Virus record (IMG/VR): IMGVR_UViG_3300033150_000822 | Span: 1-32,630 of that record | Strand: one strand, 5' to 3' | Length of the DNA stretch: 32,630 nucleotides | Source: a virus | Part shown: positions 2,905 to 18,653 of the stretch, piece by piece | How the letters are laid out: each line of letters begins with the position of its first letter | Numbering within the stretch: position 1 is the first letter of the stretch | Position numbers and translations under genes: made by a program | Notes under the pieces: generated by a model | The model's input: only the letters and a program-made list of their open reading frames with translations | What the model was told of the DNA's origin: nothing | Database searches by the model: none

Positions 2905-2908
2905 CTTC

Positions 2909-3421: not shown

Positions 3422-3425
3422 GGTG

Positions 3426-3512
3426 TCACCTCCTTCTTCTTTTATCTACTTTCGTGGGATTTAATATTAATATATAATTACTAAACATTTCTTCATTCTT
3501 TTTCCTCTTCAT
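3426..3512 (-). CDS. Very small basic peptide, overlapping gene
   Basis: This is a 28-residue reading frame beginning MKRKKNEEMF and ending in VDKRRRR. Its ATG overlaps the upstream gene's stop in an ATGA arrangement, GGAGAG precedes the start, and its stop falls inside the spacer before the next gene's GTG. These are the marks of a translationally coupled small gene. The alternative is that it is only a spacer. No function can be given. Confidence 0.4.
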   Translation of the reverse strand: MKRKKNEEMFSNYILILNPTKVDKRRRR

Positions 3513-3646: not shown

Positions 3647-3650
3647 TTTA

Positions 3651-3836: not shown

Positions 3837-3850
3837 CTTTACACCTCCAT

Positions 3851-4108
3851 TTAATTCTCAAGTTCCCAGACTATGTACACCTCATTCTTACTAACTATTA
3901 TTAAATCTTCTATGTCAGCAAATGCGTTGTACATACCCTTCTCTCTGAAAACAGGGAACTTTTCTTTTAAATAATCCTGTTCCACTACATAAATCAATGT
4001 CGATCCATATACAAAACTCATCTTCTTCTTCTTATCGAGTTCATCCAGCTCACTGTCACTTATTTTTCCTATCTTTATTAAACTTAAGCCAACTTCTTTA
4101 ATTTTCAA
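3851..4108 (-). CDS. Small protein, unknown function
   Basis: This is an 85-residue protein starting MKIKEVGLSLIKIGKIS from a TTG codon at 4106-4108, with GGAGGTG just upstream on the minus strand. A lysine-rich segment (DELDKKKKM) is followed by alternating hydrophobic strands (SFVYGSTLIYVV and DLIIVSKNEVYIVWEL). It shares the TTG start and the same leader form (ATTTAAATGGAGGTGTAAAG-like) with its neighbour at 3651-3836. No function can be assigned. Confidence 0.6.
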   Translation of the reverse strand: MKIKEVGLSLIKIGKISDSELDELDKKKKMSFVYGSTLIYVVEQDYLKEKFPVFREKGMYNAFADIEDLIIVSKNEVYIVWELEN

Positions 4109-4135
4109 CTTAACACCTCCATTTAAATTAGTTTC

Positions 4136-4594
4136 TCATCTTATTTCCCTTATATCTCTTATAAAAGGTTTATTATCAGGATTCCACGCATAATTATTTA
4201 AGAAATCAGGTATTCTCTTCTCTTTCTCCTTAAATGTTTCACGATTTCTCTTATACACCCTCTTTCCTCTTCTATATTTTATTTTCGCAAGCTTTACACA
4301 TAGATAGTAAGTTTTCCCTTGTCTAACAACCATTCCTCTCACTCTCTTCGCATATTTCTCCTTATTCTTTTTAAACTCTTCTTCTTTTACAGCTATCAGA
4401 GTTACAGGCTTTAATTTCTCCTTCTTCTTCTTCTTAAACACACCCTCTTCTTTCCTCTCTCTCTTATAGTCACTCATTATCTCTTTCAGCCGTTTTAAGT
4501 CTTTCTTTTTGTTTTCGATGGTTTTCTCTCTCTTTAATACGTTAATTATCTCTTTATTTAATTCTTTCCTCCGCTCACGGTTATTTTTTATCAC
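4136..4594 (-). CDS. Highly basic protein, possible nucleic-acid binder
   Basis: This is a 152-residue protein dominated by lysine and arginine. It includes an N-terminal coiled-coil-like helix (residues 1-48), a KKKKKEK run near residue 55, and a C-terminal part with RRGKRVYKRNRETFKEKEKR. The middle (KPVTLIAVKEEEF) looks like an alpha/beta core. Such composition suits DNA or RNA binding, but no family is recognised. The start is GTG at 4592-4594. GGAGGTGATAAG directly precedes it on the minus strand, a strong ribosome-binding site. It is the first gene of the operon that runs left to 2356. Confidence 0.6.
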   Translation of the reverse strand: MIKNNRERRKELNKEIINVLKREKTIENKKKDLKRLKEIMSDYKRERKEEGVFKKKKKEKLKPVTLIAVKEEEFKKNKEKYAKRVRGMVVRQGKTYYLCVKLAKIKYRRGKRVYKRNRETFKEKEKRIPDFLNNYAWNPDNKPFIRDIREIR

Positions 4595-4670
4595 CTTATC
4601 ACCTCCTTTTTATCTTATTATTATCACATAAATATAATTAATTACTTATATACGCATCTAAAAAAAAATA

Positions 4671-4710
4671 GATAAAAGAAAACTGTTTTTTTTTTAAGTT
4701 TTCTCTTATC
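4671..4710 (-). terminator. Intrinsic-type terminator hairpin for the minus strand
   Basis: Bases 4671-4684 (GATAAAAGAAAACT) pair with 4697-4710 (AGTTTTCTCTTATC), a 14-bp stem with one G-U type mismatch and a 12-base loop that is mostly T on the plus strand. Read leftward, the stem is followed at once by a run of U (plus-strand A-run near 4661-4668). It overlaps the stop codon of the gene at 4706-5050 and separates it from the operon starting at 4594. Confidence 0.6.
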
Positions 4711-5050
4711 TAACAAACGAGTAAGCCACCATATACTTATTTTTGTCAGGATTGAAGGCAGAGAATTTAATAACTCCTGTTTCCGCACCTTTTTCCGCAA
4801 ATTTATTAAGGTTTCCTCGAATCGTTGCGTCATTAACGTTAAATTGTTCTTTTAAGTCATCTGGGAAGACTATTTCGTTTTTCCTCTCCTTTAAGAATTC
4901 ATACATAGCCTCAACTTGTGTCTCTCTCTCTGTTATTTTTCTAACATCTACCTTCTGTCCTTTTCTCGACAGTTTCGCCACTATCTCCTCCGTTAAGCCA
5001 ATTATTTCGACCTTCGGGGCATCCTCTGGGTTTTTCTTCTTCTTGGACAT
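4706..5050 (-). CDS. Winged-helix-like DNA-binding protein, probable regulator
   Basis: This is a 114-residue protein. After a basic N terminus (MSKKKKNPEDAPK), residues about 48-88 look like a winged helix-turn-helix: helix EAMYEFLKERKNEIV, then DDLKEQFNVNDATIRGNLNKFAEKG as turn plus recognition helix. The following strands (GVIKFSAFN..KYMVAYSFV) form the wing. It is a single-gene transcription unit with its own terminator. GGAGGAG precedes the ATG at 5048-5050. Its leader contains an eleven-unit GAA run, and its promoter lies inside the left edge of the CA/TG-free tract, so it is a natural candidate to regulate that tract or itself. This is inferred from position only. Confidence 0.6.
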   Translation of the reverse strand: MSKKKKNPEDAPKVEIIGLTEEIVAKLSRKGQKVDVRKITERETQVEAMYEFLKERKNEIVFPDDLKEQFNVNDATIRGNLNKFAEKGAETGVIKFSAFNPDKNKYMVAYSFVR

Positions 5051-5084
5051 ATATATCTCCTCCGTTTCATTTTTTCAGCTTAAA

Positions 5085-5117
5085 TTCTTCTTCTTCTTCT
5101 TCTTCTTCTTCTTCTTC
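5085..5117. repeat. (TTC)11 triplet repeat
   Basis: Eleven uninterrupted TTC units (GAA on the minus strand) lie in the probable leader of the gene at 4706-5050, 35-67 bases upstream of its ATG. Homopurine-homopyrimidine triplet runs can form triplex DNA and change in copy number. The repeat also sits at the left edge of the CA/TG-free tract, whose last normal CA is at 5076-5077. Confidence 0.9.
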
Positions 5118-5287
5118 TTTATACCTCTTAATTCTTTTTATAAGCTTTTATATAAGATTTAAACCTTATATTTAAGCTTATCTTAAAGTAAGGTATATAA
5201 GAAGCTTAAAGAAGAGAATTTAAGCCTATATACCGTATTTCCTTATCTCTTATAAGGAATTACTCGTTTTTATCGGTTTCCTTCCGC

Positions 5288-5367
5288 ATAGGGGGTTTTA
5301 AACGCCCCTATTTTCGAAAGGGTCGGTATTTTCGGGGTTTTCCCGAAAACGAAACCTTTAAAAGGTT
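5288..5367. repeat. Three consecutive hairpins in a G/C-rich patch
   Basis: Three stems occur in 80 bases of an otherwise A/T-rich region. They are ATAGGGG (5288-5294) with CCCCTAT (5305-5311), TTTTCGGG (5329-5336) with CCCGAAAA (5342-5349), and AACCTTT (5353-5359) with AAAGGTT (5361-5367). Loops are 10, 5 and 1 bases. The spacing suggests a structured RNA or a DNA structure bound by a replication or regulatory protein. Confidence 0.6.
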
Positions 5368-5851
5368 ATAGGGGTATAAGTATTTATAAGTAATTCTCTT
5401 TTAACTTATATAAATATATCTTAAAATTAAAAAAGACAAAACCCTCCCTTATTTCCCGATTTCTCTTAAAAATACTCTTTAAATCATATTTTAAGCTTAA
5501 ATCTTTCTCTATTCTCGATTTAAAGGAAATTTCCTTAAATTTTAAGTCTATAAACGAAACTTAATTCGATAATAACCGTAATTTTAAATATTAAGAGGTA
5601 TATAAATATACCTTAAACTAAAAGAAGCAAGAATATAGCTTAAAATTAGATTTAAAGCTTTAATTTCCTTTCTTTTTCTAAAATATTCTTTGTAGGAATA
5701 ATTTTAAGTTAAGAATATTCCTATATATCCTTTTAGATAAGAGATAAATAATATAAGTATATTCTAATCCGAAGATTTTTAGGATAAGTTTATAAATATA
5801 TAAGTACATTCTAATATAAGAGCTCTTAACTACTATAAGAAACCTTACTTA

Positions 5852-5927
5852 CTTATATAAGAATCCTTATAAAAGTAAGATCTTACTTTTATAAGCTTTA
5901 TTATAATCCTATATAAGAAATCTTATA
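5852..5927. repeat. Palindrome cluster with a perfect 30-bp palindrome
   Basis: Bases 5866-5895 are perfectly self-complementary over 15 pairs, with outer end CTTATAAAAG and centre TAAGATCTTA. It is flanked by the 10-bp palindrome CTTATATAAG at 5852-5861 and by TATAAGA-AA-TCTTATA at 5912-5927. A spacerless 30-bp palindrome can extrude a cruciform or bind a symmetric dimer. It lies inside the CA/TG-free tract. Confidence 0.85.
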
Positions 5928-6450
5928 AAGCTTTTAAGAAGCGATTTAAGGGTATTTTTTCCGATTAAGGTATAACTCCCTTAACCGTATAAGAAAACGC
6001 CGAGAATCGTTTAAAATAAGCTTAAAATTTAATTTTAAGACTACTCCTTATATAGTAATAATATAACTTACTAAACCGAAAGTAAGCCTAAAATTCTCTC
6101 CTATCTATTTTTAAAGCTTAATTTTCCGAGTAATCGAGGGAAGGAGATTAAATTTAACTCCGAATTATTACTACTATTATACGTAAAACTAATTTTTCGT
6201 TAATCGTACCTTAAGCTTACGTTAATAGACTTAATTTTAAGATATATTAATAAAATACTTATAATTTAAATAACTAAAAGTTATCTCTTTTTAAATTTAA
6301 AGGGAGAAATTACTTTTAAATTTAATTTAAAGGCTAAATTTAAGTCTATTTCCGATTTAAAGGAAAAAACTTAAAATTAACGAAAGCTTTATAAATAGTT
6401 AACTCTTAATTCTATTAGAATAGGTTAAATCCTATTCGGAGGAGATAAAA

Positions 6451-7080
6451 ACGAAAGCGAAAAAAACGGAGCGAGAAAACGGGATTAATCCCGAAATAAC
6501 GAACGAAAATACCCCTAAAGAGATTTTAGGAGGTATAAAAGACGTTAAATCCGTAAAAGAGGCTAAAAAGTTTCTTTTAGAGGATTTATACGATAAATTC
6601 TACCCCGATTTCGAAAATAGAGACTATTTTCGAGATAGAGCGGATTTACTCGGGGGAGACGTATTAGAAGAGGTTTTCCTTTTCTTAAGTAAGTCTAAAA
6701 TACCGATAGAGGAATTAGATTACTTTATAGGGAATTTAAGCGAGAGGATACACGCCGATTCGATATACGAGTACGAAAACCTCGTTAAAATCCTTTCGAG
6801 AGCTATAAAGGGGTTCGTTTTTAAAAAGGAGAGAAAATATCTCCTTTTAAACTCTTTAGAAAATAAATTAATAAAGAATTACGGAAAGAACCCCGAAACG
6901 GGAGTTTATAAGCTTATAACTCCCGAAGAAGCTTTAGAAACGGTTAAGGAGGCTTTAGAAAGGTTAGATTACGAGGAGATAGCTATTAAGGAGTTTATAG
7001 TAAGAATAACTCCCGAAATAGCCTCCTATAAGAGATTAGACGTCTATAAGGTTTTAAAAGTAGTAAAGGAGGCGATTTAA
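6451..7080 (+). CDS. Unknown protein with a predicted ACG start, gene 1 of the CA/TG-free operon
   Basis: This is a 209-residue frame with no stop codon. GGAGGAG (6438-6444) lies six bases before ACG at 6451, exactly where ATG would be expected. The frame is open only from 6424 and contains no ATG, GTG or TTG at all, so initiation must use a non-NTG codon; ACG is the best placed. The protein is normal-looking and charged (for example DLYDKFYPDFENRDYF, then EALERLDYEEIAIKEFIVRI near the C terminus), probably helical. It has no Met, Cys, Gln or Trp and one His (codon at 6751, one of the few CA steps). Arginine is mostly AGA or AGG (8 of 10). No family is recognised. It is followed without gap by the gene at 7081. 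Confidence 0.7.
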   Translation, partial: TKAKKTERENGINPEITNENTPKEILGGIKDVKSVKEAKKFLLEDLYDKFYPDFENRDYFRDRADLLGGDVLEEVFLFLSKSKIPIEELDYFIGNLSERIHADSIYEYENLVKILSRAIKGFVFKKERKYLLLNSLENKLIKNYGKNPETGVYKLITPEEALETVKEALERLDYEEIAIKEFIVRITPEIASYKRLDVYKVLKVVKEAI

Positions 7081-7275
7081 ACGTTTAAACTTTCTTTAGA
7101 AGAAAAAGAACGATTAGATAGGCTAAGGAGGGTAAAACTACCCTCTATTTCTATTTCGGAGGAAGAATTTTTCCTTATTTCCGAAATAGAGGAAGAAATC
7201 GAGCTTAAAAGGATATACGAAGATACCCCTATCCTTAATATAGATATAGAGGATAGGTATAGGAGGAATAGATAA
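7081..7275 (+). CDS. Unknown small acidic protein with a predicted ACG start, gene 2 of the CA/TG-free operon
   Basis: This is a 64-residue frame that starts immediately after the TAA of the previous gene. GGAGG (7068-7072) lies eight bases before ACG at 7081, the same arrangement as gene 1. No NTG codon exists in the frame. The product is mixed-charge, with a run of acidic residues in the middle (SEEEFFLISEIEEEIELKR) and an arginine-rich end (EDRYRRNR), likely helical. It contains no Met, Cys, His, Gln or Trp. It ends 15 bases before the ATG of gene 3. Function is unknown; the tight spacing points to a shared complex or pathway with its neighbours. Confidence 0.6.
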   Translation, partial: TFKLSLEEKERLDRLRRVKLPSISISEEEFFLISEIEEEIELKRIYEDTPILNIDIEDRYRRNR

Positions 7276-7290
7276 ACGGAGGCGAAAAAT

Positions 7291-7695
7291 ATGTTTAAAG
7301 AGACCGAAAAACTTAATATAGAGAATTTAAGAAGATTAGAGGAAATTAAATCCGAGTTAAGAGAATTTAACGAGGAAAACGAGGTTAATTTCCTTATACT
7401 CGGATTAAATATCGGGAAAGAGGGAAAGACTAACGTTATAAGTCTCTCTTCCGATATAGAGAAACTTTTTATTCCTAAAAAGGGAATAGGAAGCGAAAAC
7501 GAGAGATCGGAGGAGTTCGATAGATTAGAGCGTGCCGTTTTCGATTTTAACGAAAAATTCGGGTCGGATTACGTTTTAATCTCCGAATTTTTTATTAAAG
7601 AGGAAGATAAGGTTTTTAAAACCTTAAAGGAGGAAATAAAAGACTTAAATAAGAGATTAAGGGAATATAGTAACTTATTTAAGTCTAAACCTTAA
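7291..7695 (+). CDS. Unknown coiled-coil-like protein, gene 3 of the CA/TG-free operon
   Basis: This is a 134-residue protein beginning MFKETEKLNIENLRRLEEIK. Unlike its two upstream neighbours it has a regular ATG at 7291, preceded by GGAGG at 7278-7282. That ATG supplies one of only four TG steps in the whole tract. The N-terminal and C-terminal thirds look like long charged helices (LRRLEEIKSELREFNEE and KTLKEEIKDLNKRLREYS), consistent with coiled coil. The middle has strand-like segments (NFLILGLNIG, TNVISLSS). It contains no Cys, His, Gln or Trp and no internal Met. No family is recognised. Confidence 0.75.
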   Translation: MFKETEKLNIENLRRLEEIKSELREFNEENEVNFLILGLNIGKEGKTNVISLSSDIEKLFIPKKGIGSENERSEEFDRLERAVFDFNEKFGSDYVLISEFFIKEEDKVFKTLKEEIKDLNKRLREYSNLFKSKP

Positions 7696-8363
7696 TTTCT
7701 CTTTATTTTTCCTTTCTTTTCTTATTTAAACCCGAATTTTAATATTTTTCTATTAAAAATCTAAAATTCTCCCTTTTAAGATATATAAATCCCTCTAAAG
7801 AAGCTTGAAATATATATTAACGTATATTTAAGCTCCTAAACCTAAAAGAAGCCTAAATATCCGAGATTTATATATCTTAACGCAAATTAGAGGCTATTTT
7901 CCCCTCCTTTTCTCTATATCTAACTAAAATCTCCCTTATTCCTTTTTTAAAGCCTATTCCTACCTTTATTTTCTATTTAAAGGCTATTCTTCCCTTTATA
8001 GAATAAATAAAAGGGGTATAGCTCTTCTATGCTAGCCTGTCCTCCGTAAAAATGTCAGCTTTCAAAATCTTAATATAAGTAACCACTAATATACTAATAC
8101 GTTATATCAATATACACAACCCCTTTTTAATATTATAGTTATATATAAGAACTAACTAATATACTAATATACTAATACCCTAGAATATCAATATACTCGA
8201 AATCCTCCAAAAAAGAGTTCCCTCTTAAGTAAATACTAATATACTAATATGTCGAGGAGAAAAAAGGAAAACCAGCAATTTGTATAAGTCCAAAGATTGT
8301 CTAACAAAGCCTCTCCTATGAGAATTTGTAACGAATCAATTTATCAGGATGTTAGAAGTTCCT
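7696..8363. other. Intergenic region: end of the CA/TG-free tract, then iteron-like repeats
   Basis: Bases 7696-8029 continue the CA/TG-free composition, are pyrimidine-rich just after the operon stop (CTTTATTTTTCCTTTC near 7701) and could end its transcript. Normal composition resumes abruptly at 8030. Bases 8085-8250 hold three blocks of ACTAATAT repeats. No gene is visible on either strand. Confidence 0.5.
8085..8250. repeat. Iteron-like ACTAATAT repeat blocks
   Basis: Three blocks of tandem ACTAATAT octamers start at 8085 (2 units), 8155 (3 units) and 8235 (2 units), spaced 70 and 80 bases apart. The first two blocks end in ACTAATAC and are each followed within ten bases by the same 12-mer, ATATCAATATAC (8104-8115 and 8185-8196). 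Regularly spaced iterons next to a structured A/T-rich region are typical of replication origins or of operators for a multimeric repressor. No encoded initiator is recognised here. Confidence 0.7.
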
Positions 8364-8507
8364 TTATCTATGTAGAAGCGTGAAGGAAACTTCTCCACCT
8401 TCAACATTCAGCGTAAACTTTATGTTATCGAGGTAGAAGTCATCGTGTGCACTCTCCACTTGTTTTATAGTCTCCTCGACGAAACTACTCACATCTTTTA
8501 ATTTCAT
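8364..8507 (-). CDS. Small acidic protein, unknown function
   Basis: This is a 47-residue protein (MKLKDVSSFVEETIKQVESA...). The frame is open further upstream, but GGAGGCGAAC lies directly before the ATG at 8505-8507, so this is the start. An N-terminal helix is followed by two strands (LDNIKFTLNVEG and GEVSFTLLH). The size and alpha-beta-beta order are reminiscent of small trypsin-co-occurring-type domains, but I cannot name it. It is translated from the same leftward message as the zinc protein at 8521, whose stop is 13 bases upstream. Confidence 0.65.
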   Translation of the reverse strand: MKLKDVSSFVEETIKQVESAHDDFYLDNIKFTLNVEGGEVSFTLLHR

Positions 8508-8520
8508 ATGTTCGCCTCCT

Positions 8521-8730
8521 TTAACCAAACGTTTTGACATTTTCATTAGTAGTAAGATGCTGAAGGGTTTTTTTACAAATATCTGGTCGGACAAAATTAG
8601 ACACATTAACGTTGAACACTTTACAATGATACACGCCATCCTTTTCCTCTAAATTAGGACAACCCTTACATGAGTTGTTCTCTCTCACTACTACTTGTGT
8701 CCTCACAATTTCTTCAGCCATACGTTTCAT
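8521..8730 (-). CDS. Small cysteine-rich, probably zinc-binding protein
   Basis: This is a 69-residue protein. CKGC (about residues 21-24), a cysteine in YHCKVF (about 36) and a final one in DICKK (about 52) could form a four-cysteine metal site. Start choice is uncertain: ATG at 8728-8730 (MKRMAEE) or four codons later; neither has a strong ribosome-binding site. A TATA-like run (TATATTTTTT on the minus strand near 8772-8783) upstream would drive this two-gene leftward unit, divergent from the late operon. Confidence 0.6.
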   Translation of the reverse strand: MKRMAEEIVRTQVVVRENNSCKGCPNLEEKDGVYHCKVFNVNVSNFVRPDICKKTLQHLTTNENVKTFG

Positions 8731-8809
8731 CTCAAAACCAAATTCCAGATGAACACTGCCTACATATTTTCTAAAAAATATACGGGCAAGTTAAAAATCA
8801 CACCTGAGA

Positions 8810-8873
8810 GGAGAGCAGAGAAGAAGACGCTGGCAACAGATGGGAGGTGAATAGATGATGCCCTCTGCTCTCC
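8810..8873. repeat. 11-bp inverted repeat with long loop, possible small RNA or operator
   Basis: GGAGAGCAGAG (8810-8820) is exactly complementary to CTCTGCTCTCC (8863-8873) around a 42-base loop. The loop includes GGGAGGTGAATAGATGATG, which holds a ribosome-binding-like GGAGGTGA and a C-box-like ATGATG. It may be an operator bound by a dimer, a small structured RNA, or the leader of a very short peptide. Confidence 0.5.
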
Positions 8874-8994
8874 ATAAAACATGAACCATTTTCTTTGAAA
8901 TTCCTATATAATATATACTTCTCTCTCTTCGTTTAAATAATTTGCTGTTATTTAAAATTATTATTTTTATAAAAAATTAAGTGAAGTTCATCGC

Positions 8995-9010
8995 AAAGCT
9001 TATATATAGG
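8995..9010 (+). promoter_or_regulatory. Archaeal-type promoter of the virion operon
   Basis: AAAGCTTATATATAGG combines a purine-rich BRE-like CGCAAAG with a strong TATA box. A start site about 25 bases downstream (near 9030) gives a leader of about 45 bases before the small terminase ATG. Confidence 0.6.
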
Positions 9011-9074
9011 TTGTTTCTAAAATATAGTAAATGTTTCACATCGGAAGTTTCATCATTAATAAAAGTGGGTCGTC

Positions 9075-9617
9075 ATGACATTAGAAGGCTCTTGTAAAGT
9101 CTGTAGATTATCGAAAAAAGATAGAACTGACGTAGAGCAACTCATCGAAAACGGGGTGTCTTTGAAGGCTGTGGCAGCAGAGTATAATATACCGGTGAGA
9201 GAGTTAAAAAGACACATGAAGCTCCATACAAAGAAAGCTATGGGGAAAGTTGAAACCTCCACAGGTATAGAATATGATGAACATTATAGATTAGCAAACT
9301 TAGAAAAATTTAAGAGCATGTCAGGAGAACAAATACTAGAATCCATGGTTCCTAAGATTGCTGAGCGTATTGAAGTTCTATTAACAGGAGACCCAGATAG
9401 TGCAACAATTAATAAACAAATCACTCTTCTTATCGAGGCTCTTCGTAAGGCGTGTATGTCTATTGCTGAACTCAAAAGAGAGCTTGCGTCAGAGACCCAT
9501 ATCACATTAATACAGTTTAACACACTCCGCTCATTAGTTCTTGAGGAATTGCCACCAGAATATAGAAAGAAAATAATCGATAAATTAGGTGATGTTATTG
9601 ACGCAGACTCTCTCTGA
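9075..9617 (+). CDS. Probable small terminase subunit
   Basis: This is a 180-residue protein just upstream of, and overlapping, the large terminase, the usual place for the DNA-recognition subunit. Residues about 8-47 contain a CxxC (CKVC) and then a helix-turn-helix (VEQLIENGVSLKAVAAEYNI, PVRELKRHMKLH), as in small terminases that bind the packaging site. The C-terminal two thirds are helical and could oligomerise. The start is the first ATG after the late promoter; the ribosome-binding site is weak (GTGGGT). Its stop lies 20 bases inside the large-terminase frame, so the two are translationally coupled. Role is inferred from position and the HTH, not from a family match. Confidence 0.7.
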   Translation: MTLEGSCKVCRLSKKDRTDVEQLIENGVSLKAVAAEYNIPVRELKRHMKLHTKKAMGKVETSTGIEYDEHYRLANLEKFKSMSGEQILESMVPKIAERIEVLLTGDPDSATINKQITLLIEALRKACMSIAELKRELASETHITLIQFNTLRSLVLEELPPEYRKKIIDKLGDVIDADSL

Positions 9618-11013
9618 AAGACTTCTTGGTGAATTGAAGGCATACGAAGACCCAACATACTTCTGTAAACATGTGTTAGGCATTAAGCAATTCCCCATAC
9701 AAGAAGAACTCATGAAACTTTTCTACTTATCGCCACAGAAATATCGTGAACTCATACTTATTGCTGGAAGACGTGCTGGTAAGACAGAACTAGCATCTCA
9801 GTTCTCCACATATGAAGCATTTAAACTTATCTGTTTAAAGGATCCAGCTAAACATTTTGGATTAGCAAAAGGACAGGAAATCTTCATAATCAACGTAGCT
9901 AGCAGCAAGGAGCAAGCTCTTGACACAGTATTTGCGGCAATATCAAATAAGATATACAACTCCGACTGGTTTCAATCACAAAACTACAAAGAACGGTACA
10001 ATGAATTTCGTTTTACGGAGTGTAATGTAACAATCAGATCAGATCATTCTAACTCATCGTCGTTAGTTGGAAGAACAATTAAGTGTGCCATCCTCGACGA
10101 ACTTGCCAGATTCACTGATAGATCGAAGAAATCATCTGCGCAAGCAGTGTACGCAGCAATAACATACTCTACAGCATCCTTCGGAGATCAGGGAGTTGTT
10201 ATATCAATCACATCTCCAATCTACGCTAATGATTTCTCAATGCAGCTGTACCATAAATCTAAGAAAATCCCCAATATGCTCGGAAGGCTGTATCCCACTT
10301 GGGTAATGAATCCAAACATAAGTAGGAAATCACTTCAATCTGAATTTGATAAAAACCCCGAACTAGCAGAGAGAGACTTTGGAGCAAACCCGTCATCTGA
10401 ATTAGAATCATACTATAAGGAAAAATGGAGAATCCGACTCGAAGACAACATTCATGACGACACAGCACTGTACGATGGAAAACTCATAAACACTGGTAGG
10501 GAAAACACCACATACGTTCTTGCTGGAGACCCCGCATACAAAAATGATGCATTCGGCTTAGCACTAGGGCACGTAGAAATCGGTGGGAACATAGTCATTG
10601 ACATCATTCATAGATTCAAACCTCAAGGTGAGGGTAGAGAAGTCTCATCCAGAGAAGTAAAAACACTGATTATGGACATCATTAAAAACTACAACGTCAC
10701 TCTTTTCCTCACAGACATATGGTCTTACACAGAGATCATAGATGAACTTAAAGAGGCTGGTGTTCGTGTTGAAAGACATACAGTCAAGAAAGAAGATCAT
10801 GATCGATTGAAAGAAAAAATTTACACACAAACTATCAAATATCCTAGAGATGAAGTGTTCTTTAAGGAACTTGAATCTCTCGAACTTATAAGAGGCAAGA
10901 AAGTTGACCATCCAAGAGAAGGCTCTAAAGATGTGGCCGATGCAGTAGCGAATGTTGTATACGGACTCACTGAAGTTGGAGCTTATCAGCCTCCCATATT
11001 TATGCAGGTGTGA
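9598..11013 (+). CDS. terL: Large terminase subunit (packaging ATPase and nuclease)
   Basis: About 471 residues, normal for the family. The N-terminal ATPase has Walker A GRRAGKT (residues 57-63 from this start) and Walker B CAILDE (163-168). The C-terminal RNase H-like nuclease shows its acidic residues in GDPAYKND (near 310), in LTDIW (near 374) and in DVADAVANVVYG (near 450). It pumps DNA into the capsid through the portal and cuts it at the end. The frame is open from GTG 9589 and ATG 9592, but GGTGAT at 9588-9593 with four bases of spacing points to TTG at 9598. It overlaps the small terminase by 20 bases and reaches the start of the portal gene. Confidence 0.95.
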   Translation: MTQTLSERLLGELKAYEDPTYFCKHVLGIKQFPIQEELMKLFYLSPQKYRELILIAGRRAGKTELASQFSTYEAFKLICLKDPAKHFGLAKGQEIFIINVASSKEQALDTVFAAISNKIYNSDWFQSQNYKERYNEFRFTECNVTIRSDHSNSSSLVGRTIKCAILDELARFTDRSKKSSAQAVYAAITYSTASFGDQGVVISITSPIYANDFSMQLYHKSKKIPNMLGRLYPTWVMNPNISRKSLQSEFDKNPELAERDFGANPSSELESYYKEKWRIRLEDNIHDDTALYDGKLINTGRENTTYVLAGDPAYKNDAFGLALGHVEIGGNIVIDIIHRFKPQGEGREVSSREVKTLIMDIIKNYNVTLFLTDIWSYTEIIDELKEAGVRVERHTVKKEDHDRLKEKIYTQTIKYPRDEVFFKELESLELIRGKKVDHPREGSKDVADAVANVVYGLTEVGAYQPPIFMQV

Positions 11014-11015
11014 AT

Positions 11016-12359
11016 ATGAAATTAAGTTTAGAATTAAGGAAACGAAATGAACAGATCATACAGAAGTTGAAAGCTGTGAAGAAGATAAATGTAAATTTAA
11101 GAAGGCCTAGAACTCCTAGAATCCCACATATGTCTATTCCTAAAGTTGACATACCAGATTTCAATATATCAATGCCCTCAGCTTCCCCTGAACTCTATGA
11201 CGTAAAACTCACTGATGATTACAATCCTAAAACAGTATCTGATGCCTTTGATATTGCCTGGGAAAGAACAGATAAGTTCTCTACATGGTACAATATATAC
11301 GAGCAAGAGGCTTTGGTTAGAGCTTGTATTGATACACTTGCGTATTTCGCAACATGTAAGGGATATTTCGTAACAACTGACAACCCCATTAAACAAGAAG
11401 CACTCGATGAGATAAATATGATGAATTATAAAATCAACATTGAGACATCTATGGGAATCGGGGTCAGAAGAATGTACATATATGGAGTATCCCCATTTGA
11501 GAAAGCTAGGAATAAGAAGGGGAACATCAGGAAGCTTATACCTCTTGATCCAGCAAAGCTCGAACCCACAATTGGTAAAAAACATAACATCGAGAAGTAT
11601 GTGTACAACAGCAATATAGAGTTGAGGCCAGAAGACGTTCTCTTACTGGTCAACAATCCATTAGAGAAACCATATGAGGGCTTCTCTAAAATACATCCAA
11701 TTGAAAATGCTGTGTTACTTAAGCGTCATCTCGAACATGACATCAAAGAAGCTGCACTCCGTCTTTGGGCTCCAGCAGCACATATTCAGCTTGATACAAC
11801 TGGTCTAACTCCCACACAGGAAAGACTTGCTATACAAAAGTTTATAAACAATCTAATCCCTGGGAAGTCTCTGGTCACAAATAAAAGTGTAGACTACAGT
11901 AAAATTGATGTCCGACCCGATATGGTTGCATTGGTCAAAACATGGGAAGCAACAAATGAAGAAATAATTGGAAACTTCGGTGTACCAAAAGCACTTCTTG
12001 CGAGAGAAAAAACAATGAATAGAGCCACTCTCGAATACAGCATAAAAGCAATGTATGAGGGTGTAATCAGAGGCTTACAGACATACTTAGGTAGAGAAAT
12101 TGAAAGTCAACTTTATCAAGACGTCCTAGAGAGATACGGGATTAAAGATGAAATCGTCACACATAATTGGAAACCATTTGAGAAGGAAGACTTAGCGAGA
12201 CTCGCAAACGCTGTTTGTGCTCTGTATGAAGATGAGATAATTGATAAGTTCAAATCATGGGAGCTTTTAGCTCTCGGTTCTTATAGTCCTCATAAAATCA
12301 AAGAGGCAGACGATAAGAAATATGAAGAGTCTGATTCAATAAGAGAAGTGATTAAATGA
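11016..12359 (+). CDS. Portal protein
   Basis: About 447 residues, directly after the large terminase. The N-terminal 60 residues are basic and proline-rich (RRPRTPRIPHMSIPK). The core follows the usual portal pattern: an ACIDTLAYFATCKGYFV helix, LIPLDPAKLEP, and late in the protein FGVPKALLAREKTMNRATLE, a motif found in many portals just before the C-terminal wing. Twelve copies would form the ring through which DNA is packaged and to which the neck attaches. The start is ATG 11016 with GGTGTGA in front; GTG 11010 is also in frame. The stop overlaps the next gene in an ATGA arrangement. Confidence 0.85.
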   Translation: MKLSLELRKRNEQIIQKLKAVKKINVNLRRPRTPRIPHMSIPKVDIPDFNISMPSASPELYDVKLTDDYNPKTVSDAFDIAWERTDKFSTWYNIYEQEALVRACIDTLAYFATCKGYFVTTDNPIKQEALDEINMMNYKINIETSMGIGVRRMYIYGVSPFEKARNKKGNIRKLIPLDPAKLEPTIGKKHNIEKYVYNSNIELRPEDVLLLVNNPLEKPYEGFSKIHPIENAVLLKRHLEHDIKEAALRLWAPAAHIQLDTTGLTPTQERLAIQKFINNLIPGKSLVTNKSVDYSKIDVRPDMVALVKTWEATNEEIIGNFGVPKALLAREKTMNRATLEYSIKAMYEGVIRGLQTYLGREIESQLYQDVLERYGIKDEIVTHNWKPFEKEDLARLANAVCALYEDEIIDKFKSWELLALGSYSPHKIKEADDKKYEESDSIREVIK

Positions 12360-15300
12360 AGAGTGAGAATGTTATAGAAATTAAGAATGTAGAAGATTTT
12401 GAGAAACTCCGAGTGTACAATCTCCATAAAGATGATAATATAAAAGAACTAGATGATAAAAGGCTCATTGCAGCCCACTTTGAAGTACATAGAGCATGGA
12501 CTCTCTTCAAAAAGTTTGGGAAATTTGGAGATTGGACAAAGAAGGAACTTATAGAATACCACAATAAGGTTGTGAAGGAAATGGCTTCCAGGAACATGAA
12601 ACATGAAAGTCCTCTCCTAGCAGAAAAGATAGCTATCATCAAAGACACAAGATTCGCTAGATGTTCAGAATTTGAGATAAATGGTCAAATATTCGAGAAT
12701 CCCTGTAAAGACGAGGGAGCAAATGCTGCAGCATGCTTCGTTAATTTCCTGAAGACAAAAGGCGTCACGAAGGTCAAAGCTCCAAATATTGGTCCAAATG
12801 CTCAAAGATTTCTAGAAGAGGGAAACATTACAATCGAACATCTCTCTTATGCTCCTGTGAAATCTAAGGGGGAACAAAACCTCCCAAAGATAACTCTTGA
12901 GGATTTCTTATCTAAAATTCAATCATTCTGTATTTCCAACCCCTCAGTTATCCTCACAGGCTCTATTGTCAATGAGGGATATACGACAGGGGACATTGAT
13001 ATACTGATAAGGGGAAAAGAGAATGATCCTACAGTTCAGAAGACTATGTTTAGAATAATCAGAATGTTCGATAAGGACACACAGAAGAGGCTCCACTTCT
13101 TATTTGTAGATGATTTGTCTGGTCCATTCACTTCATTTGTTCCGCTCTACAAACAAGTTGTCGAGAAAACAGACTTAGAAAAGGTCGAGATGTCCGATTT
13201 CTCATTCATTCCTCCTCTAAAGGCTGGGAGAAGATCAGAGAGGGAGCTTTTCAAGACTGATGAAATTCAAAAAGACATACCAGAAGACAAATTCCCTCTC
13301 ATAGTCCAGCTCAAATATGATGGATTACGTGGCCAAATACATAAACAGAACAGCAAAGTCACAATTTACTCTGATGATGGGAAAAACATAACAGACTCTC
13401 TTCGAAAAATAGCAGAAGAGGTCAGAAACCTCAATGAAGACAATTTCATTCTAGACTGTGAAATAGAGCAATGGAAAGATGGTAGGCATATTGGTCGTGA
13501 GGTAATTGCTGGTAGGACACATCAGAAAACTCCATTCGACGATACAGGTACAGTAGCATCTCTTTTCGATGTTATGGTTTGGAAAGGAAAGTACATACTG
13601 AAAGAACCATATGAACAAAGATTTAATCATCTCTATGAATTAAATATCAAACAATCTGAAATGTATTTCTCTAAGACTCCGGAGAAATCTCTCAACATAG
13701 CACCTAGTATAAAAGTGAACAATTACTCTGATCTCAGGAAAGCTATAGTCAAGTGTTTCTCTCAAAAATACTCTGAAGGTGCTATGATCAAACAAGCAAG
13801 TTCCATTTATGAGAAAGATGGAATCACAATGAATTGGTGGAAGGTTAAAAAATATGCGGAAGTCCATGCTATAGTTACCAAGCGTGTCGAAACGAAAACA
13901 CCTAATGTCTACACTTATCATCTTGGTCTCTCAATTCCAACTAAGTTTGAGAAAGAAATTAAGGAGAAAGTATCTATAAATAATAAAGAATATATAGAAA
14001 CTGGGAAATGCTTCAATTCGAAAAAGAAACTCAAGATCGGAGACATTGTTACAGTCAAATTCCATACCTTATTCACATACTCTAATGGGACGTTTTCCCT
14101 CAAATTATACGAGCCTAAAATCATGGAGCATAGACCTCTAGAGAAAGAGCCAGACGACATATACGAGGCTGTCCTTATCGCTAAAAAAGCTGGGCTCCTA
14201 CAAACTAAGGAACGTCTGACCGAAGAGGACATACAATCCTTATCTTCAGCCGTCCAGACACTAATATTTGATAAGAAGAAATTTACGAAACAGAAAGCCA
14301 TCGCCTGGGCAAAGTCTCATAACTTCAAATTCAATAATGTCGAAGAAACCCCTAATTTCTGGAGGCTCAGACAATTTGAACCAGACTTATGTAAGAGGGC
14401 TGGTGGACTCAAAGAATTTGACGATGGAGTAAGAGCGTACATTTGTGTTACACAGCTTTCTTCCGAAGAAGAGAAACAATTGTATGATTTAAAAGTATCT
14501 GATTTATCTGAAGATAAAAAATGGGGAGCGTATCTAGGCTCACATTATCGTGGAAAATCTGGTCATCTTGATCTCAGACTAGAACGGGAAGACGATTGCT
14601 GTGGCTGGACTCTCTTTGCATTCCCTGAGGGTGCAATAAAAGAAGATGTTACAACAGTTAAGCAAGCAAAAGAATTAGATAAGAAGATCGACATAAAGTT
14701 CAAGCCCACATACACTGAAACGAAGACACAATGTACACCCAAAGCCCCCGAACCTAAAGAGTGGATGGGATATGAAAAAGCAGTTCCTCCTGGTGAAGTG
14801 GGTGCTACGAAACATGAATGGGGTGTCTTCACAGACTTCGATCACGGGACAGTCGAATATCTCTGCTCCAAACCATATTTCTACGAATACTATTTCCATA
14901 TGAAACGATATAAGGGAATCTTCTATTTCAGACAGCTTGAAAATGTTTGGAAAGAGAAAACACAACCAGGGAGATTCGTCTGGTTTGCCTGGAAAGCTAA
15001 GACTGATGAACCTTATGTTCTCACGAAACGTTCAATCACTTCTAATTACCATACTCATAAGGGACAATCCGAACTACCAAGGCATGTCAGAAAACAGATT
15101 CCCGAGCAATACAGATATTGGGAGAAACCCAATTCTTTTGAAGTCAGGAAAGCTTTGATCGAAGCAATCAAAAAGAAGGAAGTAAAGATAAGATTTGAGC
15201 TCTCTGAAGAAGAAGAGTCTACACATAGCGAACTTACCAAAGGCAAATATGCCCTTGTACATCACTGGTGGAAAGGACAGACTGTCGTCCGTGAGGGTCC

Positions 15301-16084
15301 AACAACAGAACATTATGATTTGTATATCAAGACTCCAGATAGAGAAAAACTCCTACACTATATATTAGTTAAGAATCCTCTTAAAACTCACGTCTCCTCA
15401 GCTCTCATTGCCGAACCTGTAGGAGATAAGTATTTGACAATTGGCAAGGGTAAGCCAGTCGAGATAGCTCCAGGACAACCAGATAATCCCACAAAGAACA
15501 CACCAGCTTATTTAGAGCAGGTCGCTTCTGGAGAAGTCACGATTTTTGAAGATAAAGAACTCTTCAAGAAATTTAAGTTCGAAAAACTCGGAACATGGAT
15601 CTTTGTAAGAGAACAGAAGACAAATATGTGGACAGCATCAAAAGCGGAGAATCTATCGGAGGAAAAAAAAGTAGAATTATCAGAAGTCAATGCAGCACAT
15701 GTTTTACTTTCTTTCGGCAAAGATGTAGCTCTCTCCCCAGGTGTTTGGAACGGATTCTATTATCCTCCAGAAGTTATCCATAAGGTTGCAAATCTTGTCG
15801 ATGGTTGTCCTATTGACGTCGAACACAATGGGCGAAAAGTAGGGAAAGTTCTGTCTCATAAAATGTCTGGGGATGATTTAATAATAAATCCGCTCATAAC
15901 AGAAGAAAAGATTAAAGAGGATTACGATAAAGGAAAATATTGTTGGTCAATGGATTTCACATTAATGGTCGATAAAATCAGGAGGATAGTCAAAGATGTT
16001 AAGAAGGTATTCTTTGCCTCTCTAGTTGAGAACCCAGCATGTAAGGTTTGTACAACAGCTACTAAAAAATGTGAGCACGTATGA
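12356..16084 (+). CDS. Giant multidomain protein: nucleotidyltransferase-like, ATP-dependent ligase, LigD phosphoesterase-like and prohead-protease-like parts
   Basis: 1242 residues in one frame. In order: 201-218 TGSIVNEGYTTGDIDILI, the GS..DxD signature of polymerase-beta-type nucleotidyltransferases; 320-325 KYDGLR, ligase motif I with the adenylated Lys, then LDCE (366-369), LFDVMVW (403-409), EGAMIK (474-479) and WWKVKK (494-499), a complete ATP-dependent ligase set; an OB-like part to about 595; a segment at 640-700 with FWRLRQFEPDLC and FDDGVRAY; 729-742 SHYRGKSGHLDLRL and 966-991 with TEHYDLYIK, two LigD 3'-phosphoesterase-like units; and from 1124 an XkdF or S78-like protease part with His in DVEHNG (1157) and Ser in YCWSMDF (1198). 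Its place between portal and scaffold is where the prohead protease belongs. Whether the ligase works in DNA repair, end processing or only structurally is unknown. Confidence 0.8.
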   Translation: MKSENVIEIKNVEDFEKLRVYNLHKDDNIKELDDKRLIAAHFEVHRAWTLFKKFGKFGDWTKKELIEYHNKVVKEMASRNMKHESPLLAEKIAIIKDTRFARCSEFEINGQIFENPCKDEGANAAACFVNFLKTKGVTKVKAPNIGPNAQRFLEEGNITIEHLSYAPVKSKGEQNLPKITLEDFLSKIQSFCISNPSVILTGSIVNEGYTTGDIDILIRGKENDPTVQKTMFRIIRMFDKDTQKRLHFLFVDDLSGPFTSFVPLYKQVVEKTDLEKVEMSDFSFIPPLKAGRRSERELFKTDEIQKDIPEDKFPLIVQLKYDGLRGQIHKQNSKVTIYSDDGKNITDSLRKIAEEVRNLNEDNFILDCEIEQWKDGRHIGREVIAGRTHQKTPFDDTGTVASLFDVMVWKGKYILKEPYEQRFNHLYELNIKQSEMYFSKTPEKSLNIAPSIKVNNYSDLRKAIVKCFSQKYSEGAMIKQASSIYEKDGITMNWWKVKKYAEVHAIVTKRVETKTPNVYTYHLGLSIPTKFEKEIKEKVSINNKEYIETGKCFNSKKKLKIGDIVTVKFHTLFTYSNGTFSLKLYEPKIMEHRPLEKEPDDIYEAVLIAKKAGLLQTKERLTEEDIQSLSSAVQTLIFDKKKFTKQKAIAWAKSHNFKFNNVEETPNFWRLRQFEPDLCKRAGGLKEFDDGVRAYICVTQLSSEEEKQLYDLKVSDLSEDKKWGAYLGSHYRGKSGHLDLRLEREDDCCGWTLFAFPEGAIKEDVTTVKQAKELDKKIDIKFKPTYTETKTQCTPKAPEPKEWMGYEKAVPPGEVGATKHEWGVFTDFDHGTVEYLCSKPYFYEYYFHMKRYKGIFYFRQLENVWKEKTQPGRFVWFAWKAKTDEPYVLTKRSITSNYHTHKGQSELPRHVRKQIPEQYRYWEKPNSFEVRKALIEAIKKKEVKIRFELSEEEESTHSELTKGKYALVHHWWKGQTVVREGPTTEHYDLYIKTPDREKLLHYILVKNPLKTHVSSALIAEPVGDKYLTIGKGKPVEIAPGQPDNPTKNTPAYLEQVASGEVTIFEDKELFKKFKFEKLGTWIFVREQKTNMWTASKAENLSEEKKVELSEVNAAHVLLSFGKDVALSPGVWNGFYYPPEVIHKVANLVDGCPIDVEHNGRKVGKVLSHKMSGDDLIINPLITEEKIKEDYDKGKYCWSMDFTLMVDKIRRIVKDVKKVFFASLVENPACKVCTTATKKCEHV

Positions 16085-16764
16085 AAGACTACATAGGCGG
16101 AGTGTTAGACGCACAATTTAAAGTGTTTGAAAAAAGAGGAAATTTCAAACTTAAAATTTGGTCTAAAAACCCTGACTACATGTTCTGGTTACACTCTCAG
16201 CTTAAGTCTGGCGAGTTTAATAAGAAAGAGAACACGAACACAGCTTCTATACATTGGGAAGACAAGCGGATTGAGAAATTAGAAAAGTTCACTCCTAACC
16301 TTCATGTGTTTGATAAGATCATCTCTTCTATCATTAAGTTTCAAAACACAGAATTTCCAGACGTCTACTCTAGGAGATACGCACTTCTGACAATAAGGGA
16401 CACACTTGATTCGCCACTTACATTTCATGGCTCACCAAATGTCGAATATATCGCAGGTTTTTTTGATGTCTCATCGGTAGTTACGTTTGTTAAACATACT
16501 CCTAGAATATATATAGAGTTTAGGAGCAGAGAAGTTTTGGAGGCACTTAGGGATTTCTTAGGAGCAGGACGTATATACAAGATGGGAAATATTTACGCAA
16601 TTGTGTTCATGAAATGGGAGACTGAGTTCCAAGTTGTTCAACTTCTGTATCCTCATATTAGACGAAAGAAGAAACATTTCACAGTTTTATACGATCTTTT
16701 CTCAGAACATATTAGTTTGAAGGATGCTGAAAGAACAATCGTCTTCCTCAACAAACGTAAGTGA
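16081..16764 (+). CDS. LAGLIDADG-family protein
   Basis: 227 residues with two LAGLIDADG-type motifs, DYIGGVLDA (residues 3-11) and EYIAGFFDV (122-130). Each keeps the acidic residue (D10 and D129) that binds metal in homing endonucleases. After the second motif come IYIEFRSREVLEALRDFLG and GRIYK, and near the end LLYPHIRRKKKHF, all matching the monomeric two-repeat endonuclease pattern. It is joined by an ATGA overlap to the giant gene and shares the late operon. It may be a free-standing homing endonuclease or a domesticated DNA-binding relative. The usual flanking GxG residues are altered (IGGVLDA), so activity is uncertain. Confidence 0.7.
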   Translation: MKDYIGGVLDAQFKVFEKRGNFKLKIWSKNPDYMFWLHSQLKSGEFNKKENTNTASIHWEDKRIEKLEKFTPNLHVFDKIISSIIKFQNTEFPDVYSRRYALLTIRDTLDSPLTFHGSPNVEYIAGFFDVSSVVTFVKHTPRIYIEFRSREVLEALRDFLGAGRIYKMGNIYAIVFMKWETEFQVVQLLYPHIRRKKKHFTVLYDLFSEHISLKDAERTIVFLNKRK

Positions 16765-16796
16765 AACTCTCGTTTCATCAGCTCTCTTTCAGAAAT

Positions 16797-16809
16797 GTTA
16801 TAAATATAT
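16797..16809 (+). promoter_or_regulatory. Internal promoter for the capsid genes
   Basis: GTTATAAATATAT is a good archaeal TATA box. A start 25 bases downstream falls just before GGTGAT (16829-16834) and the ATG at 16838, giving a very short leader. This would allow extra expression of scaffold, decoration and major capsid genes, which are needed in high amounts. It overlies the end and the space after the LAGLIDADG gene. Confidence 0.5.
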
Positions 16810-16837
16810 TACATTACTTATATTATTTGGTGATACA

Positions 16838-17353
16838 ATGTCGGATGAGAGCGAGACCCTAAAGTATCCGCTCCCAGATAGCAAGAAACCATTGAAAGTA
16901 GATGGATCTGCTATAGAATATATTGTTCTTTTTCCAAAAGGATACAAAGAATATCCTGAAAAGGAGATAGAGCAAGAAGAAATAGACAGACTGCAAGATG
17001 AAATAAGCAGGCTGAAGAAAGAGCTTGAAGCTCTTACTGAGGAGAGAGATACTTTAAGTCAAAAACTTTCTGAAATAGAAAAAAGAGAAAAAGAAGAATT
17101 GATACAAGACGTCTCAGCAATTAAAGAGAAGCTCGGTATCACGGAAGAGGGAGAAAATCCCCTAAGTGATCTGCCTCTAGAGACTCTTAGAGCCATCATA
17201 GCAACTCTTTCTAAAATTCCTATACCGGATGAAGAAAGAGAAGATGAAGCCGAACCTAAAGTACCACCTGAAAAACCAGTTCCAGAAGAGAAGAAACTTT
17301 CCGCAGAGGAAAAGTTTAGACTAGAACTCTATGGACATAAGGAGGAGATTTAA
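16838..17353 (+). CDS. Probable capsid scaffolding protein
   Basis: 171 residues from ATG 16838, chosen over an upstream in-frame start because GGTGAT sits four bases before it and a TATA box is suitably placed. Residues about 40-90 form a clear coiled coil (EEIDRLQDEISRLKKELEAL, TEERDTLSQKLSEIEKRE). The protein is very acidic, and a proline- and charge-rich linker (EPKVPPEKPVPEEKK) leads to a short C-terminal helix (AEEKFRLELYGHKEEI). This is the typical build of a scaffold that guides procapsid assembly and contacts the capsid by its C terminus. It lies directly before the decoration and major capsid genes. Confidence 0.7.
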   Translation: MSDESETLKYPLPDSKKPLKVDGSAIEYIVLFPKGYKEYPEKEIEQEEIDRLQDEISRLKKELEALTEERDTLSQKLSEIEKREKEELIQDVSAIKEKLGITEEGENPLSDLPLETLRAIIATLSKIPIPDEEREDEAEPKVPPEKPVPEEKKLSAEEKFRLELYGHKEEI

Positions 17354-17785
17354 ATGACAAGTGCAGGAGATATAGTAAAAGAACACACTCTCTGTGTCAT
17401 ACCTTTTGCAGCTGACTCATCTGTTTCCGCCTCCCCCTCTGATATAGCAGTCGGAGATGTTGTCTGTGTCCTAGGAAATACTGGTGCTACAGATGGTATA
17501 TTCCCAGCACAATCTTCAGATACTGGACCATTTTTCGTTGCGATAGATTCAACAGAGTCCGCTTCGAGCACAGAAGTAAGATGTGTTGTAGATGGTTTCG
17601 TGTATGTTAGACACAATAAAGCTTCTGCCATAGCTCCAGGAGCTTGGGTAGCAGCTGAAGATGATGGTATGGTTCAGCAAGCAACTGCACAGACTGATAT
17701 AGCTAAAGGGCTCATAGTTGGATGGGCTCCATACGGTGTAGAAGCAGATGAAAGTGAGTTTGTGCTAATAAAATTGGGTGTTTAA
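17354..17785 (+). CDS. Probable capsid decoration protein (DUF2190-like)
   Basis: 143 residues, small, alanine- and glycine-rich and beta-rich. It has the pattern GDVVCVLGNTGATDGIF, then VDGFVYVRHNKASAIAPGAW, then AKGLIVGWAPYG, like DUF2190-type proteins found next to major capsid genes. Such proteins bind the outside of the capsid or stabilise it. GGAGGAG precedes the ATG right after the scaffold stop, and the gene is immediately followed by the major capsid gene. Assignment rests on pattern and position. Confidence 0.6.
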   Translation: MTSAGDIVKEHTLCVIPFAADSSVSASPSDIAVGDVVCVLGNTGATDGIFPAQSSDTGPFFVAIDSTESASSTEVRCVVDGFVYVRHNKASAIAPGAWVAAEDDGMVQQATAQTDIAKGLIVGWAPYGVEADESEFVLIKLGV

Positions 17786-17786
17786 A

Positions 17787-18653
17787 ATGGCTGAAGAATT
17801 TAAAATGTCTGATGGATTCCTGGATATAAATAAGATTCAGGATATAAAAGCAAAAGTGATAGCAGGAGAGGTCATAGGTCTATCGAAAGCGAAATTGGAT
17901 CTTAGGGAACTTTGTGAAGTTATTCCCATGCCTAAACTTTTAGGTACAAGATACATTGCAACATCTCTATCTGCTAATGAAAATGTTAAAGTTCTTGAGG
18001 AAGCTGACATCGATAGCCACGATTATACTAAGGTTGACTTTGATTTGGCGTACAAAGGTAAAAACGTGGTCCATGTGGCAATACCGGATGAGAGTGAGAT
18101 GCAGGCTGATTTCTCTGTTATAAGGCTACATACGCAGGATGCTGCGGCAGCTTTAGCGAAAGTTGAGAATAAGCAGATAATAGAAGCTCTTAATGATGCC
18201 ACGCATTCAGTTACTGGTTCTAGCTGGTCTGGTGCAAATGATCCTTCTGACGATATAATGCAGGCTATCGCCGAGATTTCAGACTCTGATCAGTTGTTCT
18301 CCCCAGACACGCTTTTAATGCATCCTCTGGTATGGGCTAAGCTCAGTTCAAACGAGGAAATTAAAAAGTATATAGCTAGAGACACTGTAGCAAAGACTGG
18401 AAAGCTCCCACAAGTTTGTGGACTTAACGTTGTTTCTCACCCAGCAATGGCTTACTTTACTACAAATACATATACAGACACTGCGATAGTGCTCGATAGT
18501 AAAGCACCGGCTCTATGTTTGGGTGATGGACCAGTAAAAGTTAAGAAATACTACAACAACACGAAGTTCTACACAGGAATAGCTGTTGCGAAGTGGATAC
18601 AGCCAAAACTGTTGCTTGATGATGCTGTTAGATACATCACTGGTGTCAGTTAA
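17787..18653 (+). CDS. Major capsid protein, HK97 fold
   Basis: 288 residues from ATG 17787, with GGGTGTT just upstream; an in-frame start nine bases earlier is less likely. Features fitting an HK97-type capsid protein are a helical N terminus with LRELCEVIPMPKLLGTRY, a central block (QAIAEISDSDQLFSPDTLLM and HPLVWAKLSSNEEIKKYI) and the C-terminal pattern GLNVVSHPAMAYF...TAIVLDSKAPALCLGDG. About 290 residues is on the short side of the normal range. It forms the capsid shell after scaffold release. The next frame overlaps its end. Confidence 0.85.
   Translation: MAEEFKMSDGFLDINKIQDIKAKVIAGEVIGLSKAKLDLRELCEVIPMPKLLGTRYIATSLSANENVKVLEEADIDSHDYTKVDFDLAYKGKNVVHVAIPDESEMQADFSVIRLHTQDAAAALAKVENKQIIEALNDATHSVTGSSWSGANDPSDDIMQAIAEISDSDQLFSPDTLLMHPLVWAKLSSNEEIKKYIARDTVAKTGKLPQVCGLNVVSHPAMAYFTTNTYTDTAIVLDSKAPALCLGDGPVKVKKYYNNTKFYTGIAVAKWIQPKLLLDDAVRYITGVS

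Follow-up and report, generated by a model that had tools for sequence, protein, structure and literature searches.

A head-maturation protease fused to a LigD-like nucleotidyltransferase–ligase–phosphoesterase module in a group of uncultured tailed viruses

In bacterial and archaeal non-homologous end joining (NHEJ), LigD unites an ATP-dependent ligase, a 3'-phosphoesterase (PE) and an NTP-using partner, the archaeo-eukaryotic primase-type POL domain, in one chain. Mycobacteriophages with Ku bring this protein themselves and borrow the LigD of the host. Their pairing of phage Ku with host LigD serves genome circularisation (Pitcher et al. 2006, as cited in PMC7719229). Of 243 archaea surveyed, only 10 combined Ku with a LigD-type ligase domain (PMC7719229). 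The PE of LigD holds a manganese triad, H42/H48/D50, accompanied by R52, and the phosphate-binding residues H84 and Y88, which are essential in Pseudomonas aeruginosa (PMC8656161).

Polyvalent proteins are very large multidomain phage proteins with a structural-gene context and mosaic DNA-acting domains, for which packaging and injection are presumed (Iyer et al. 2017, PMC5512222). In that survey, few are reported from archaea, those above 1000 aa are almost exclusively bacterial, the passages found on ligases concern RNA ligases, and processing is ascribed to zincin metallopeptidases. Head-maturation proteases of the XkdF/Peptidase_S78_2 family (PF14550) are encoded in the slot after the portal gene and are normally small, as in Pseudomonas phage Roomu-2 (154 aa). 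A relative of the protein described below is encoded by the virus ANMV-1 (KP703175), which has an archaeal host (PMC4372165). This protein, AJP62006, is annotated as 'ATP-dependent DNA ligase' and has a nucleotidyltransferase (NTase), a ligase and two PE domains, in the same order as in the protein below, within 866 aa. Its gene comes right behind a portal-like gene; the core is unfused, and the gene annotated as 'prohead protease' lies at another place in the genome. The text of the ANMV-1 paper (PMC4372165) makes no mention of a ligase.

The window analyzed here, a stretch of 32,630 nucleotides from the IMG/VR virus record IMGVR_UViG_3300033150_000822, encodes on its plus strand a 1242-aa protein (12356..16084) in which such a core is joined to a protease. 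The ORF runs intact for 1242 codons from an ATG at 12356 to a stop codon at 16082-16084, and 4-bp ATGA overlaps link it to the portal stop and to the start of the next ORF. From the N-terminus, it comprises a pyrimidine-dimer-glycosylase-like (PF03013) domain, a NifX-like domain, a Pol-beta-type NTase, a ligase with its OB domain, two PE-like domains and a head-maturation protease. The earlier note, made from the sequence alone, had proposed a fusion in a single frame and a single chain; its coordinates proved exact, and the domains were recovered by profile and structure. A chance ORF was rejected, given the probability of about 10^-39 for a random frame of this length at 38.6% GC and the conservation in relatives. 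A one-off assembly chimera was likewise rejected, as the same fusion occurs in another IMG/VR locus, L001 (54% identity), and in 24 further loci.

The ORF lies within a block of head genes, all on the plus strand. Upstream are an HTH protein that may be the small terminase subunit (9075..9617; weak HTH matches and position), the terminase large subunit TerL (9589..11013; phrog_17415, 2.3e-28) and the portal protein (11010..12359; PF04860, 2.4e-15). Downstream, a 227-aa ORF is followed by a coiled-coil, scaffold-like protein (16724..17353; weak phrog_206 scaffold match and position), a decoration/cement-like protein (17354..17785; weak PF09956 match, 0.0078), the major capsid protein (MCP; 17778..18653; phrog_1650, 3e-16), and then tail and baseplate genes. 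This order places the fusion ORF in the slot of the prohead protease, as the earlier note had supposed. Roomu-2 shares the order TerL–portal–protease–(scaffold)–decoration–MCP, and its protease slot holds the 154-aa XkdF. The label 'DNA methyltransferase' on XkdF matches from Pseudomonas phages was considered as a precedent for the fusion and rejected, the Roomu-2 protein being a stand-alone protease. Scanning the window for Rfam families and tRNAs gave no match.

Two domains at the N-terminus had been missed in the earlier note; the domains that it did name were confirmed. A helical domain (aa 19-86, 12410..12613, plus strand) matches PF03013 above the cut-off (3.1e-7), a match shared by three of 34 family members. 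Endonuclease V relies on an N-terminal Thr, which an internal domain cannot use, and catalysis by this domain is therefore unlikely. The NifX/Nitro_FeMo-Co-like domain that follows (aa 98-160, 12647..12835, plus strand; 0.0013, below the cut-off) is absent from L001 and ANMV-1.

The Pol-beta-superfamily NTase (aa 178-293, 12887..13234, plus strand) carries G202, D213, D215 and D253. The first three form the signature hG[GS]...D-h-D, noticed previously as GS-DxD, and are invariant in 38 relatives. PF01909 (NTP_transf_2) matched the window below its cut-off (E 0.019, aa 195-249) and reached 2.6e-5 in one relative. When the NTase profile was searched against the PDB, the best matches were Pol beta, TdT and Pol X, all weak (E 0.05 at best), and the fold-search list for the NTase–ligase model was filled by ligase matches. 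Its activity may be that of a transferase and not of a polymerase. The domain stands directly in front of the ligase adenylation domain, a position that a DNA-binding domain takes in the ligases of archaea and eukaryotes.

The ATP-dependent DNA ligase consists of an adenylation domain with the KxDG lysine, K320, and an OB domain (aa 302-612, 13259..14191, plus strand), identified by profile and structure. PF01068 matched aa 302-498 above the cut-off (E 3.6e-28). All the core motifs that had been read in the one frame are present: K320, D322, G323, E369, F404/D405, S473-E474-G475-x3-K479 and K496/K498. Across 30 relatives, K320, R381, R422, S473-E474-G475, Y485 and K496 are invariant. The PDB relatives are DNA ligases of archaea and eukaryotes, DNA ligase I and the T4 enzyme. 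Over the adenylation and OB domains, an AlphaFold model of aa 173-617 (pLDDT 89.8) superimposed on human Lig1 with a Z score of 25.5 (3.1 A over 304 residues).

Two PE-like domains follow, the first at aa 720-884 (14513..15007) and the second at aa 957-1096 (15224..15643), both on the plus strand. PF13298 found no match in the window at E values up to 1 and thus never reached the curated Pfam score, and in the relatives L001 (E 0.04) and L006 (2e-6) it stayed below the cut-off. Because PF13298 alone misses the window, the PE identity rests on family profiles, PDB searches and structure. A profile built from 38 first PEs was searched against the PDB, and its top five matches were five known LigD-type 3'-phosphoesterases, from Korarchaeum (6.8e-5), M. 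barkeri, Methanocella and, twice, P. aeruginosa; the first-PE profile also retrieved ordinary cellular PEs from sampled archaeal genomes. With hhalign against 11 cellular PEs, the first and second PE reached probabilities of 98.7% and 97.4%, respectively. In a model of aa 713-1242 (pLDDT 83.5), the first PE aligned with the archaeal PE 3P4H over 116 of 118 residues (Z 15.2, 1.9 A).

The segment H730-x6-H737-x-D739-x-R741, previously read as LigD-like, thus belongs to a genuine homologue of the LigD PE. Its four named residues correspond to the LigD metal triad and R52 and are invariant or at least 90% conserved in 38 relatives. LigD H84 and Y88, however, align with E799 and W803; the family has E or Q and W at these sites, W803 without exception, and K796 is a nearly invariant lysine. 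We therefore place the first PE in a branch of the PE superfamily with an altered phosphate pocket, and judging from these substitutions, its chemistry may differ from that of LigD. The second PE, noticed earlier through H986-Y-D988, is also a homologue by profile and retains the fold; its residues, however, are variable, and these catalytic-looking ones have been lost in most relatives. Conservation of catalytic residues in relatives, on which the earlier note had staked its reading, thus holds for the ligase, the NTase and the first PE, with the exception of the replaced H84 and Y88.

The C-terminal part (aa 1108-1242, 15677..16081, plus strand) is a head-maturation protease with the gp21/assemblin fold. 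Its His1157 and Ser1198 are invariant in 22 sequences, which bears out the His/Ser protease-like end seen in the earlier note. In the model of aa 713-1242, the domain matched T4 gp21 with a Z score of 10.0 (2.6 A, 114 residues) and herpesvirus assemblins with Z scores of 6-8 (8.3 for pseudorabies virus pUL26N). The PF14550 model does not recognize the protease of the window, which has diverged too far; the C-termini of relatives match the model with E values down to 1e-36, mostly in the same ORF as the ligase and PE. Profile searches and structure prediction thus recovered the ligase, PE and protease folds independently of one another.

To delimit the family, IMG/VR was scanned with profiles; L001 was the first locus to emerge, and dozens more followed. 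Home-made profiles were iterated over all ORFs and duplicates removed, leaving 61 loci. About 60 distinct loci from viruses thus contain the NTase–ligase–PE–PE core; of the 61, 56 have the NTase, 58 the ligase and 59 the PE. This order is the usual one, and in some cases the core is split over two or three ORFs; in one clade (L044, L048, L049, L058, L061, L062), PE–PE precedes the ligase. The protease is fused in 26 loci, encoded by a separate ORF in 21, and was not found in 14, several of which end at a contig edge and six of which fell outside the PF14550 search. On the ligase tree, the fused or separate state changes about six times, and strongly supported branches require at least three of these changes; the association with the protease therefore outlasts both loss and renewed gain of the fusion.

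A portal gene (PF04860) was detected in 25 of 50 virus records, on the same strand as the ligase and upstream of it, in nearly all cases less than 10 kb away; in G008 it is upstream only if the record is circular. PHROG scans of the adjoining ORFs returned mostly portal and terminase upstream and mostly major head proteins downstream. In several relatives, Dam and Dcm methylase domains have been added, and MBL-fold domains also occur. L001 carries a RaSEA-like archaeosine radical-SAM domain, and L004 carries 2H phosphoesterase domains; a putative TGT-like N-terminus and FolE-, QueD- and QueE-like neighbours of L004 are names given from our own reading of the sequences.

A tblastn search against GenBank phages yielded one core relative among the matches listed, AJP62006 of ANMV-1, and searches with three other divergent members added no further ligase–PE phage among the matches listed. 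A scan of genome contigs found two loci, which are archaeal by binning, one in an Archaeoglobales MAG and one in a Thermoprotei MAG. When genomes sampled from the two archaeal phyla of these MAGs were searched with the PE profile, further strong matches appeared in one phylum. The matches of the window's terminase are spread over bacterial phages, and PCNA, used as an archaeal marker, gave one sub-threshold match in 50 records. By association with ANMV-1, the RaSEA-like domain of L001 and the two MAG loci, the host of the window is likely archaeal. The viruses that carry this family form a large uncultured assemblage of tailed viruses, archaeal at least in part.

Compared with LigD, the fusion protein has a Pol-beta-like NTase in place of the POL domain, and no POL-domain family gave a match. 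It further differs in its doubled PE, the replacement of H84 and Y88, the fused protease and the lack of a detected Ku: none was found in the 50 virus records, most of which are fragments, and Ku may come from the host. NHEJ-like double-strand joining would therefore need another end-holder. Like the Ku mycobacteriophages, these viruses would direct end-joining chemistry at their own genome; there Ku is viral, here the ligase and PE. With two or more enzyme or effector domains combined in a single phage protein of structural context, the fusion also shares the hallmark of polyvalent proteins, with a head protease where the survey describes zincins. It is a variation on the polyvalent-protein theme with LigD-like chemistry.

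Proteases of the gp21/XkdF type work inside the prohead, as in T4 and HK97, and a passenger fused to one should therefore be enclosed. We hypothesize, with a probability of roughly 55%, that the fusion represents a protease-borne, Ku-free, LigD-like end-healing and sealing module that is carried into the prohead, freed, and acts on packaged DNA. In this model, the module would be an N-terminal passenger of the protease: the NTase would add or trim nucleotides at ends, the first PE would restore ligatable 3'-OH ends, the second would be an inactive copy, probably for DNA binding, and the ligase would seal. The protease part would take the module into the prohead together with the inner scaffold and cut it free, so that it would stay with the packaged DNA. 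During packaging and/or after injection, it would seal nicks and gaps, repair nuclease damage and possibly join the genome ends into a circle. Encapsidation, cleavage, DNA rather than RNA as the substrate, and the timing are what we infer here. The accretions in relatives (Dam, Dcm, RaSEA-like, MBL, 2H and TGT-like) would be in keeping with a packaged set of enzymes, similar in type to polyvalent proteins, that protects and repairs DNA. Further-reaching is the idea that this group possesses an in-particle, Ku-free, LigD-like end-joining machine, delivered and released by the protease, which closes or repairs the injected genome before viral gene expression; we offer it tentatively, at less than even odds.

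Part of the evidence would also fit an ordinary viral DNA ligase or repair enzyme working in the cytoplasm on late replication intermediates and concatemers, the fusion serving co-expression and stoichiometric release. The ligase was found in 47 of the 50 mostly fragmentary records, and it is usually the sole ATP-dependent ligase detected, a second clear one occurring in a single record even with records of 60-156 kb included; moreover, the module is unfused in ANMV-1 and some others. What makes this explanation rather unlikely in our view is that the module of the relatives lies between portal and MCP, away from replication genes, that the protease link persists across many splits and fusions, and that a PE-bearing module is atypical of replicative ligases.

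A virion-borne RNA repair or modification kit, with NTase, ligase and PE rebuilding tRNAs cut by host defence, would account for the 2H domains and TGT-like N-terminus of L004, the RaSEA-like domain of L001, and the weak matches of some relatives' ligases to RNA_ligase and capping-enzyme models. Yet the ligase and OB domains are best matched by DNA ligase I and the T4 and archaeal DNA ligases, 7-deazaguanine enzymes modify viral DNA too, and the Dam and Dcm domains act on DNA; we regard an RNA role as improbable. The decay of the second PE and the lack of H84 and Y88 in the first could even suggest that the N-terminal domains are inert ballast, a filler for DNA binding or the internal scaffold whose enzymatic function is gone. 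The catalytic residues of the ligase and the NTase and the metal triad of the first PE, however, vary little or not at all among 30-38 highly divergent sequences, which leaves ballast the least probable explanation of all.

To our knowledge, the fusion of a head protease with NTase, ligase and PE is new, no earlier description having been found in the open-access journal literature searched. If the packaged-module hypothesis is correct, the cargo that tailed viruses pack with their genomes would include DNA end repair alongside lysozymes, RNA polymerases and ADP-ribosyltransferases, and the maturation protease would serve both to carry it in and to release it. This would account for how incoming genomes could be sealed or circularised in hosts that mostly lack NHEJ, and would point to a source of unusual ligase and phosphoesterase enzymes, some from viruses of hydrothermal archaea. 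The correct reading would also be established for proteins whose current labels are 'ATP-dependent DNA ligase' or 'hypothetical'.

Between the ligase and the first PE, the window protein contains a putative small mobile domain without a database match (VQTLIFDKKKFT...RLRQF...GVRAYIC; aa 627-700, 14234..14455, plus strand), recognized by inspection of the sequence. In L001, this domain is found elsewhere in the protein, at aa 235-300.

Several homologues of the window fusion carry additional domains. The 1719-aa homologue at locus L001 (2531-7690) contains inserted RaSEA-like archaeosine radical-SAM and DUF6884 domains, the former matched at 8.4e-37, and the homologues from Guaymas MAG loci L006 (4599-8237) and L007 (7973-13615) each have an N-terminal metallo-beta-lactamase-fold domain (1e-14). 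At locus L004 the homologue is split (2839-10724); it starts with a TGT/DpdA-like domain, and interspersed among its pieces are genes that, judging from sequence, read as QueD, QueE and FolE. L004 thus reads as a putative coupling of the ligase, LigD-3'-phosphoesterase-like (PE) and protease functions with 7-deazaguanine DNA modification.

A second locus within the same Archaeoglobales MAG bin (L074/L086) encodes a 1013-aa PE protein in which the GW motif, conserved in the first PE domain, is directly followed by an insertion that reads as an intein. Since the intein-like insertion lies precisely there, the region around this motif may be functionally important.

The 154-aa stand-alone XkdF head-maturation protease of Pseudomonas phage Roomu-2 (PP496417) is labeled 'DNA methyltransferase', as in similar records, a label apparently transferred from fused relatives. 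In the archaeal virus ANMV-1 (KP703175), the ligase gene adjoins one for a very cysteine-rich 1166-aa protein (5868-9368), whose C-terminus reads as MuF-like.

Between the fusion and the scaffold, the window encodes a 227-aa ORF (16081-16764) that shares 39% identity with the correspondingly placed ORF of L001; a search for a family match returned none. Its two repeats, DYIGGVLDAQF and EYIAGFFDVSS, look by eye like a degenerate LAGLIDADG pair, despite which the ORF is retained within the capsid operon. Further upstream, an AT-rich stretch of ~2.1 kb nearly devoid of ORFs (5163-7290), possibly an origin or control region, marks the point where minus-strand genes give way to plus-strand genes.
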